A stretch of 64,000 nt of DNA, taken from NCBI GenBank assembly GCA_018828585.1, contig JAHJVW010000128.1:27187-91186 (forward strand), in the 5' to 3' direction. Of the stretch, positions 40,282 through 48,580 are shown piece by piece. A program made the position numbers and the translations under genes. Numbering within the stretch: position 1 is the stretch's first letter; every line of letters begins with the position of its first letter. The notes beneath the pieces were generated by a model that saw nothing but the letters and a program-made list of their open reading frames with translations, had not been told where the DNA came from and did not search any database. Source of the stretch: Bacteroidota bacterium. Lineage in GTDB: Bacteria; Bacteroidota; Bacteroidia; Sphingobacteriales; Sphingobacteriaceae.

Positions 40282-41067
40282 TTATTTCAATGCCTTCACA
40301 AACTCAGCCATAGCCAATCCTGGATTTTCAGTCCGCATAAAGTTTTCTCCAATTAGAAAACCATTAAAACCTGCTGCTTTCAATAATTTAATAGTTTCAA
40401 TAGCACTTATGGCACTTTCAGATATTTTTAAAAATTCAGCAGGAATAGTTTCGGCTAAACTTAAGGAGGTTTCTATACTTACAGTAAAGTCTTTTAAGTT
40501 CCGGTTATTTACCCCGACCACATCCAAATAAGGATTTAAACTTCTGTCCAATTCTTCTTGGTTGTGCACTTCCAAAAGTGTACTTAAACCTAACGATTTA
40601 GCCAGTTTGGCAAATTTTAGAATTTCATCAGGAGTTAAACAAGCGGCAATTAACAAGATAATATCGGCGCCTAAAGATTTAGCTTCCACAATCTGGTATT
40701 CATCCACCATAAAATCTTTACGTAAAATGGGAATTTCATTGACTTTTCTGGCAGCAATCAAATCATCTTCATGCCCCATAAAAAAATCATGGTCGGTTAA
40801 AACTGATAAAGCCGAAGCACCCGCAGCAGCATAGCCGGTGGTAACTTCTTCTACCGAAACGCGGTCGTTAATAATACCTTTAGAAGGAGATTTTCTTTTG
40901 AACTCAGCAATTATACCAGTTTTATTAGGGTCGGTTAAAAAATCTTTTAAAGCATAAGTTGCTCTTGAAAAAGCAATAGATTTTTCTAATTCGCTTACAC
41001 TTGTTTTGGCTTTCGCCGATGCTACTTCTTCTTTTTTACGAGCTACTATTTTATCTAGAATGTTCAT
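40282..41067 (-). CDS. trpC: Indole-3-glycerol phosphate synthase
   Basis: IIAEFKRKSPSKG, LRKDFMVDEYQI, VGVNNRNLKDFTV. Confidence 0.97.
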   Translation of the reverse strand: MNILDKIVARKKEEVASAKAKTSVSELEKSIAFSRATYALKDFLTDPNKTGIIAEFKRKSPSKGIINDRVSVEEVTTGYAAAGASALSVLTDHDFFMGHEDDLIAARKVNEIPILRKDFMVDEYQIVEAKSLGADIILLIAACLTPDEILKFAKLAKSLGLSTLLEVHNQEELDRSLNPYLDVVGVNNRNLKDFTVSIETSLSLAETIPAEFLKISESAISAIETIKLLKAAGFNGFLIGENFMRTENPGLAMAEFVKALK

Positions 41068-41073
41068 TCTTAT

Positions 41074-41175
41074 AAGCTAAAGGCTTAAAGCGGAAAGCTG
41101 AATGCTAACCGAACGCCTAATTTATATTTATCAATTTAATTGCTTTTAGCCTTTTGCATTAGGCTTTTAGCTTTC
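41074..41175. repeat. Degenerate heptanucleotide arrays forming an imperfect inverted repeat between trpG and trpC
   Basis: Plus strand: AAGCTAA|AGGCTTA|AAGCGGA|AAGCTGA|ATGCTAA ... TTAGCCT|TTTGCAT|TAGGCTT|TTAGCTT; right arm runs over the trpG stop codon. Confidence 0.8.
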
Positions 41176-41733
41176 CAACCAATTCTTCATCATTTCTTTT
41201 CCAAAATCTGTTAATATAGATTCCGGGTGAAATTGAACCCCCCTAACGTCTAAAGATTTATGTCGCAGCGCCATCATTACACCATGTTCATCTTCCGCAG
41301 TGATTAATAGTTCAGCGGGTAAATTTTCTGATTTCACGGCCCATGAGTGATACCTACCCACCTTAAACTCATTTGGTAAACCCTTAAAAAGTATTTCGGA
41401 TGGGTCTTTGATTTGAATATTGGTTGCCGTACCATGTACCGGTTTAGCTAAGTTGTATAATTCCCCACCAAAAACCTCGGCAATAGCCTGCTGACCCAAA
41501 CATACACCCAAAATACTTTTTTTATCTGCATAAGTTTTAATAACATCTAGTAAAAGACCTGCTTCTGATGGAATCCCTGGTCCAGGAGAAAGTAAAATTT
41601 TATCAAATGCAGCCACATCTTCCAGCTTAAATTTGTCGTTTCTCCAAACCTCAGCATCATGATCTAATTCATTTAACAAATGCACCAAATTGTAGGTAAA
41701 AGAATCGTAATTGTCTATAACGAGTATGTTCAT
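41167..41733 (-). CDS. trpG: Anthranilate synthase component II (glutamine amidotransferase)
   Basis: DNYDSFTYNLVHLL, GVCLGQQAIAE, VQFHPESILT. Confidence 0.96.
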   Translation of the reverse strand: MNILVIDNYDSFTYNLVHLLNELDHDAEVWRNDKFKLEDVAAFDKILLSPGPGIPSEAGLLLDVIKTYADKKSILGVCLGQQAIAEVFGGELYNLAKPVHGTATNIQIKDPSEILFKGLPNEFKVGRYHSWAVKSENLPAELLITAEDEHGVMMALRHKSLDVRGVQFHPESILTDFGKEMMKNWLES

Positions 41734-41808: not shown

Positions 41809-43215
41809 TCATATTTCTTGAGCTTGTTTAATCGCATTTCTTAATGCAGCAATTTTGTTATTTACTTCATTTAATTCTGATTCTGGATTAGAATCAGCTA
41901 CAATTCCAGCACCAGCTTGATAGTGTAATTTGTTGTTTTTACTCAAGAACGAGCGAATCATGATGGCATGATTAAAATCTCCGTTGAAACCCATAAAACC
42001 AATGGCCCCACTATAAAAACTGCGTTTTCCTTTTTCATAGGCGTCAATCAATTCCATTGCTCGGTATTTTGGAGCGCCGCTTAAAGTGCCGGCAGGGAAA
42101 GTATCGGCTACAATTTTAAATGGATTAACACCTTCTTTTAAGGTACCGCTCACTTTAGAAACCAAGTGAATTAAATGCGAGTAAAATTGAACTTCTTTGT
42201 AAGCTTTCACTTCCACATTCTCGCAATGGCGACTCAAATCATTTCTGGCTAAATCAACCAACATCACATGCTCAGCAGATTCTTTTGGGTCATTTTCTAA
42301 TTTTTCGGCGATGATTTTATCTTGTGCATCGTTACCCGATCTTTTAAAAGTTCCTGCGATTGGATAGATGGTAGCGACTCTATTTTTTATTGTTAGTTGG
42401 GCTTCGGGCGAAGATCCAAAAATCTTAAAACTTCCATAATCAAAATAAAAGAGATAGGGCGATGGGTTGATGGAACGCAAAGCTCTATAAACGTTAAACT
42501 CATCCCCTAAAAACGAAGTTTGAAAAGCTCTTGATGGCACAATCTGAAAAACATCACCTCGGAAAATATGGGTTTTCATTTTCTCTACTAGCGCCTTAAA
42601 CTCCTCATCCGTTAGATTAGAACGCTCCTCTCCTTTGGTTTCAAAATGATATTCAGGAAAGTTCTTGTTCTGAATGAGGTATTCAATTTTTTCTAAGCCG
42701 TTGAGTTCTTTTTCAAACTCACTTTCATTTTTTACGATATAGAGTTCATTTTTGAAGTGATCAATGGCGATGATATATCTGTAAATATGATATTGAAAAG
42801 TAGGAATCTCTCTTTCGTTAAACGTTTCTTTTTTGAGTTTGATATCTTCAAAATACTCAACAGCTTCATGGGTGAAATAACCAAATAAACCATCAGTAAT
42901 AAACTTTAAACGGGTATCGGCATTACTTTCGAAATTTTTTCTAAAAGCGTAAACCTCATCTGTTAAGTTAAAATCTTTTAATGTTTCAGAACTTCCATCT
43001 GGATAGTTTTTTTTCAACTCAGCATTCTGGATTAAAATTCCCGCAATTGGGTCGCAGCAAACATAACTCATGCTATTTTCGCGGCTATGGTAATCAGAGC
43101 TTTCTAGCAACAAGCTATTTGGAAACACATCGCGTAAGCGTAAATAAATACTTACTGGTGTTGTAGTATCTGCTAAAAGCTTTTTAAAACTAACGTTGAT
43201 TTTAAATTTCTTCAT
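41809..43215 (-). CDS. trpE: Anthranilate synthase component I
   Basis: GDVFQIVPSRAF, PSPYLFYFDYG, GTFKRSGNDAQD, GTLSGAPKYRAMELID. Confidence 0.96.
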   Translation of the reverse strand: MKKFKINVSFKKLLADTTTPVSIYLRLRDVFPNSLLLESSDYHSRENSMSYVCCDPIAGILIQNAELKKNYPDGSSETLKDFNLTDEVYAFRKNFESNADTRLKFITDGLFGYFTHEAVEYFEDIKLKKETFNEREIPTFQYHIYRYIIAIDHFKNELYIVKNESEFEKELNGLEKIEYLIQNKNFPEYHFETKGEERSNLTDEEFKALVEKMKTHIFRGDVFQIVPSRAFQTSFLGDEFNVYRALRSINPSPYLFYFDYGSFKIFGSSPEAQLTIKNRVATIYPIAGTFKRSGNDAQDKIIAEKLENDPKESAEHVMLVDLARNDLSRHCENVEVKAYKEVQFYSHLIHLVSKVSGTLKEGVNPFKIVADTFPAGTLSGAPKYRAMELIDAYEKGKRSFYSGAIGFMGFNGDFNHAIMIRSFLSKNNKLHYQAGAGIVADSNPESELNEVNNKIAALRNAIKQAQEI

Positions 43216-43243
43216 TTTTATTATTTTGAGGCAAATTTAATCC

Positions 43244-43276
43244 AAAAAAAAAAACCCGACGGTTTAGCGTCGGGTT
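43244..43276 (-). terminator. trp attenuator: intrinsic terminator in the trpE leader
   Basis: Minus strand AACCCGACG-CTAAAC-CGTCGGGTT followed by T-tract (T11 counting the arm end), 29 nt upstream of the trpE ATG. Confidence 0.9.
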
Positions 43277-43307
43277 ATATTTGTTTAGGTTTGGGTTTGA
43301 ATTCTTT

Positions 43308-43388
43308 TTAAAACGATACAAATAAGTTTTCCGATGCTGCTTTTAACGAGCGCCACCAACTATTGTTTGTATATCTATTTTTATTCAT
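43308..43388 (-). CDS. trpL: trp operon leader peptide (26 aa)
   Basis: MNKNRYTNNSWWRSLKAASENLFVSF*; tandem TGG codons at 43353-43358; ends 31 nt before the terminator hairpin upstream of trpE. Confidence 0.85.
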   Translation of the reverse strand: MNKNRYTNNSWWRSLKAASENLFVSF

Positions 43389-43395
43389 TGCGATG

Positions 43396-43403
43396 CAAAA
43401 ATA
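43396..43403 (-). promoter_or_regulatory. -7-like element TATTTTTG immediately upstream of trpL
   Basis: Matches TAnnTTTG; would place the transcript start at or within a few nt of the trpL ATG. Confidence 0.45.
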
Positions 43404-48464: not shown

Positions 48465-48580
48465 TTTCGAAAAGCAATAGCATTGCGTTTGGCGGCGGAT
48501 AGTCCCGTCTTCCGCTAAATCTTTTGCCGTTTGTGAAAAACAAACAGCAAAAGGATATCGCTTCAACCGGGTTTAGCCAC
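48465..48580. repeat. Putative dispersed palindromic intergenic element
   Basis: ATCTTTTGCCGTTTG-TGAAAAA-CAAACAGCAAAAGGAT hairpin with flanking GGCGGCGGATAGTCCCGTCTTCCGC and CGCTTCAACCGGGTT. Confidence 0.5.

Follow-up and report, generated by a model that had tools for sequence, protein, structure and literature searches.

On the minus strand of the window, by which we mean the whole 64,000-nt stretch of DNA that was analyzed, Pfam domains identified three Trp biosynthesis genes in the order trpE-trpG-trpC. Between trpE and the next gene upstream on the same strand lie a short ORF containing two adjacent Trp codons and, downstream of it, a stem-loop followed by a T-tract (Table 1). An initial annotation of the sequence had placed a Trp-Trp (WW) leader ORF, an intrinsic terminator between this ORF and trpE, and a -7-like element with its end 7 nt ahead of the leader ATG in this region, and each was found at its assigned position. 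Only the distance from the terminator to trpE required correction, as 28 nt and not the claimed 29 nt separate the end of the T-run (43244) from the trpE ATG (43215).

Table 1 Features of the trpE upstream region and operon, listed in the direction of transcription.
Feature	Coordinates	Strand	Basis
-7 (sigma-A, TAnnTTTG) box TATTTTTG; predicted start 43391	43396-43403	-	Box spacing in relatives
Leader peptide ORF MNKNRYTNNSWWRSLKAASENLFVSF	43308-43388	-	WW/WWW orthologous ORFs in relatives and shuffle control
Segment 1, predicted partner of segment 2 in the untranslated leader	43358-43376	-	Single-sequence fold
Tandem Trp codons TGG TGG, predicted stall site	43353-43358	-	Invariant in clade alignment
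Segment 2, antiterminator 5' strand: outer arm AGCATCGG (43338-43331), inner arm TATTTGT (43324-43318)	43318-43338	-	Covariation
A/C-rich stretch CCAAACCTAAACAAATA in antiterminator loop, 5' part unpaired	43278-43294	-	Alignment
Segment 3, antiterminator 3' strand: ACAAATA (43284-43278), CCGACGCT (43273-43266)	43266-43284	-	Pairing and covariation
Intrinsic terminator stem-loop AACCCGACG-CTAAAC-CGTCGGGTT	43253-43276	-	Fold and covariation
Terminator T-tract	43244-43252	-	Kept in close-relative and wider-family alignments
Possible bypass -7 box TAAATTTG, between terminator and trpE	43232-43239	-	TAnnTTTG match
trpE, first regulated gene	41809-43215	-	Pfam PF04715 and PF00425
trpG	41167-41733	-	Pfam PF00117
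trpC	40282-41067	-	Pfam PF00218

Conservation of the leader ORF was assessed using 80 named relatives retrieved with trpE as the query. When the 350-nt upstream regions of the window and these relatives were compared, a WW leader ORF was found in 80 of the 81 sequences, a count that describes breadth and not probability since the relatives are not independent. Among 4050 dinucleotide-shuffled versions of these upstream sequences, 25 (0.6%) contained an ORF of the same geometry, and 20 of 5000 such shuffles of the window's own region produced a WW leader ORF. Sampling was extended to the phylum by drawing 300 genomes, from which 56 additional trpE upstream regions were examined; approximately 54 of these, distant families among them, carried a W-rich leader (again a measure of breadth). 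Retention of the Trp codons, which had been put forward as a check on the leader, was observed as WW or WWW across both the relatives and the phylum. Leader residues other than Trp differed widely between genera.

The terminator stem comprises 9 bp (6 GC) closed by a loop of 6 nt, with a folding energy of approximately -14 kcal/mol, and a simple terminator scan ranked this hairpin among the strongest of nine within 10 kb. Covariation was tested in a 38-sequence Sphingobacteriales alignment using 500 shuffles and slid registers as controls. Terminator positions were paired in 99.6% of cells, both sides of a pair had changed in 13 cells, and the covariation score exceeded all 500 shuffles and all slid controls.

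Downstream of the Trp codons, the initial annotation had proposed that GCATCGG (43337-43331) pairs with the 5' arm of the terminator. This pairing is correct yet incomplete, as it forms part of a two-part antiterminator with a second, inner helix, and segment 2 has an additional predicted partner in segment 1. In the window, the outer helix joins AGCATCGG to CCGACGCT through 7 pairs with one mismatch, and the inner helix joins TATTTGT to ACAAATA. Since the CCGACGCT arm overlaps the 5' arm of the terminator, the antiterminator and terminator are mutually exclusive. Folding of the stretch that begins just beyond the Trp codons and ends with the 5' arm of the terminator gave a comparable two-part helix for most displayed Sphingobacteriales loci. 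In the 38-sequence alignment, the outer helix was paired in 76.6% of cells with 11 both-side changes, and its covariation score again exceeded all 500 shuffles and all slid registers. Compensatory changes across the Sphingobacteriales, the second check that had been suggested, were thus found in both the terminator and the outer antiterminator helix. Moreover, the shared arm covaried with both of its partners (A to G with U to C, and at the next position C to U with G to A), as expected of an RNA that alternates between two structures. Mismatches were tolerated in the outer helix, however, and its fraction of paired cells counts against the attenuator reading; an ungapped 9-mer search also returned weak antiterminator partners in some Mucilaginibacter-type loci.

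The spacing of these elements was likewise conserved. The outer antiterminator arm begins 14 nt past the last Trp codon in the window and 10-15 nt after it in 58 of 65 loci. Single-sequence folding of the window predicted a protector fold between segments 1 and 2 (43376-43366 with 43322-43311, and 43361-43358 with 43328-43325; -13.3 kcal/mol), and similar 1:2 folds were predicted in other genera. Across loci, the stop codon of the leader lies within or near the 5' strand of the antiterminator; by a footprint estimate, a ribosome positioned at this codon would mask much of that strand in most loci and 11 of the 18 antiterminator pairs in the window. As a separate observation, the A/C-rich stretch CCAAACCTAAACAAATA was near-invariant in 10 close relatives, with the related TAATCAACCAAAACC present in the wider family and other genera. 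Its conservation exceeds what pairing requires, and the pairing model explains it only in part.

In Flavobacterium psychrophilum, the Bacteroidota sigma-A box is located at -12 to -5 (PMC9723704). Applying this spacing to TATTTTTG places the predicted transcription start at approximately 43391, 3 nt before the leader ATG, giving the leader mRNA a predicted 5' UTR of ~3 nt. The initial annotation had suggested such a nearly leaderless message, and conserved spacing between the -7 box and the ATG argues for it: the box was found within 8 nt of the ATG in 39 of 51 non-redundant Sphingobacteriales leaders (most at 6-8 nt), compared with 3 of the window's 54 large ORFs. For comparison, leaderless mRNAs constitute 5.5% in F. 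psychrophilum (PMC9723704). Many flavobacterial-type trp leaders presented a longer box-to-ATG spacing, indicating that the near-leaderless start is not phylum-wide. Within the window's own genome, it was absent from the pheA and his leaders and, as judged by eye, also appears to be absent from the ilv leader.

Overall, the trpE upstream region very probably attenuates transcription of the trpE-G-C operon by a ribosome-mediated mechanism. The initial annotation had reached the same reading, which is supported by the WW/WWW conservation, the covariation, the spacing of the arms and the estimated coverage of the antiterminator 5' strand by a ribosome at the stop codon. RNA polymerase would start ~3 nt ahead of the leader ATG, placing the AUG almost at the 5' end of the RNA, where a ribosome would load. 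When charged tRNA-Trp is scarce, this ribosome would be expected to stall on the two TGG codons and break the 1:2 fold, leaving segment 2, which begins ~14 nt past the last Trp codon, free to pair with segment 3. This pairing would block the terminator and allow transcription of trpE-G-C. Conversely, when Trp is plentiful, the ribosome would reach the stop codon at 43310 and mask segment 2 in its inner portion; formation of the terminator would then end transcription ~28 nt before trpE. In the same genome, trpD-F-B-A would be under a separate switch of the same logic, and, being independent, this second attenuator was counted in favor of attenuation at trpE. Clues for leader-peptide attenuation of amino-acid operons have also been reported for F. 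psychrophilum, where pheA and hisG are among the genes with conserved 5' elements (PMC9723704).

A more far-reaching reading is that the Sphingobacteriales trp switches are built around the near-leaderless start and that the terminated, AUG-first RNA additionally acts in trans, as rnTrpL does in Sinorhizobium. For the first part, a nearly 5'-terminal AUG would tie ribosome loading to the first transcribed nucleotides, in a lineage that initiates translation without Shine-Dalgarno sequences. The second part would involve the conserved unpaired A/C-rich stretch of the terminated RNA. We consider both parts holding together to be unlikely.

A competing reading, in which the hairpin simply terminates the gene upstream (43954-43460), trpE is transcribed from its own promoter at TAAATTTG (43239-43232) and the leader ORF is accidental, is very improbable. 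Such an arrangement fits the position of the upstream gene on the same strand as trpE, and the sequence TAAATTTG/TAGATTTG agrees with the -7 consensus and is shared by the window and the five loci nearest to it. However, this box is missing from 5 of the 11 nearest loci and from 68 of 69 others (it is kept in 1 of the 69 more distant loci), and no -33 TTG was seen by eye at the usual distance from TAAATTTG in the window. This reading is further contradicted by the presence of the leader in 80 of 81 sequences, by the -7 box at a near-fixed distance before it in most relatives, and by covariation of the terminator with a segment inside or adjoining the leader ORF. For the attenuator, the occurrence of a possible -7 box after the terminator in the nearest relatives means that some trpE transcription may escape the switch.

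It is also highly doubtful that the main role is exerted in trans, by the terminated ~140-nt RNA as a small RNA or by its peptide (cf. rnTrpL/peTrpL), with attenuation in cis being secondary. The predicted near-leaderless start resembles that of rnTrpL (PMC7298713), and the conserved unpaired A/C-rich stretch could be read in the same way. In Sinorhizobium meliloti, trpL is leaderless, only trpE(G) of the three trp operons is attenuated, and the released rnTrpL acts on trpDC (PMC7298713). Here, however, the trpD operon, the counterpart of that target, has its own cis attenuator, and the non-Trp residues of the peptide vary widely between genera. Finally, control of the hairpin by tRNA (T-box), a TRAP-like protein or a metabolite riboswitch, without a translating ribosome, can practically be dismissed: the leader is long and structured and a terminator is common to all such systems, but no Rfam family reached its cut-off here, no T-box or metabolite riboswitch appeared among the weak Rfam matches up to E = 10, and the conserved feature is a translated run of Trp codons.

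Among known systems, the attenuator in the window shares with Escherichia coli trpL the tandem Trp codons, the alternative 1:2 (predicted here), 2:3 and 3:4 pairings and the intrinsic terminator before trpE; unlike trpL, it has a predicted ~3-nt 5' UTR, a longer leader ORF and a separate inner antiterminator helix. With S. meliloti trpL/rnTrpL it has in common a leader ORF at or almost at the RNA 5' end (predicted here) and split trp genes, although trpD-F-B-A carries its own attenuator in this genome, unlike in S. meliloti. The closest described family is Bacteroid-trp (RF01692), listed by Weinberg et al. 2010 (PMC2864571), which resembles the element in being a Bacteroidetes leader RNA that precedes trp genes and encodes a Trp-codon peptide. 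In covariance-model searches (cut-off 49 bits), RF01692 recognized flavobacterial trpE leaders (L098, 74 bits; L090, 54.4 bits) as well as the trpD leader from a sister species (L189, 49.4 bits), and the own genome's trpD leader scored just under the cut-off (42.8 bits). It produced no match to the trpE leader of the window up to E = 10 and none to the other Sphingobacteriales trpE leaders tested. Trp_leader (RF00513, cut-off 41 bits) scored 23.8 bits against the window. Matches to RF00506, RF00116 and STnc240 near the hairpin were far below cut-off and were taken as chance terminator similarity. The only Rfam family in the window at the gathering threshold was Flavo-1; this RNA (RF01705) lies at 48497-48578 on the minus strand (52.6 bits).

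We found no published Sphingobacteriales trp attenuator in the open-licence literature. The element in the window is of a known kind, a ribosome-mediated trp attenuator, that is missed by current models, and its distinctive points are the conserved, predicted near-leaderless start and the doubled attenuator layout. Through it, ribosome-mediated trp attenuation is extended to a large section of the Bacteroidota in which trpE leaders escape the present Rfam family. The element also points to near-leaderless initiation as a conserved way of beginning a leader peptide, and the two operons together provide a case of a split pathway whose halves each retain a switch for the same signal. Such leader peptides are easily tested and would offer a clean reporter for ribosome loading on AUG-first messages in Bacteroidota.

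The second attenuator was located by pattern search on a separate contig of the same genome (C126; L128:946-1080), where a WWW leader, MKNLNVNTIWWWHYENS, lies upstream of trpD-trpF-trpB-trpA. It has its own antiterminator, GGC(UU)AACCU paired with AGGGUUGCC, and its own terminator, GGGTTGCC-GTT-GGTAACCC-T9. Within the family, 27 of 30 trpD loci carried a WW leader no more than 320 nt upstream, with W-R-W in two more. The -7 box before trpD leaders reads CATATTTG, which explains why a strict TAnnTTTG count found none there. In most Cytophagales loci examined, trpD was found in the flank just after trpE/trpG, and in none of the Sphingobacteriales loci examined was it found in the trpE flank. Most simply, these positions would reflect a split of the operon in the Sphingobacteriales line, with attenuation of each half. 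As pattern searches of the own genome for His and Trp leaders were noisy, reading frames were checked; two leader-like Trp ORFs remained, those of trpE and trpD. Four other in-frame hits were rejected: two of them overlap with long open frames of a different frame, and the other two are themselves contained in long open frames.

Related arrangements were observed at other loci. Two Fulvivirga loci (L073 and L077) each carry two complete attenuators in series, consisting of a WWW leader and terminator, from ~320 to 60 nt upstream of trpE (for example, leader MKNNSLNNAWWWHYTKTW followed by MRTLIYINKVWWWHFSHIGE). In the window's own genome, pheA (L220, ~1352-1480) is preceded by a Phe/Tyr-rich leader, MNSNTTYYFGYFYFKNKSRD, and a terminator, AACCCGGCTC..GTCGGGTT, with GAGCCGGG as a possible antiterminator arm. 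The hisG leader MKRLLTTLHHLHHHHCGDVI (L218:1220-1282) has a 5' UTR of ~40 nt and lacks an evident U-tract terminator, which may point to a different mode of termination there. At the ilv operon (L219:360-437), the leader MLFIILLIIVINLLLIGKKRKACLS is followed by the terminator GCCTTC..GAAGGC-T9, and both precede an aminotransferase-like gene and ilvD.
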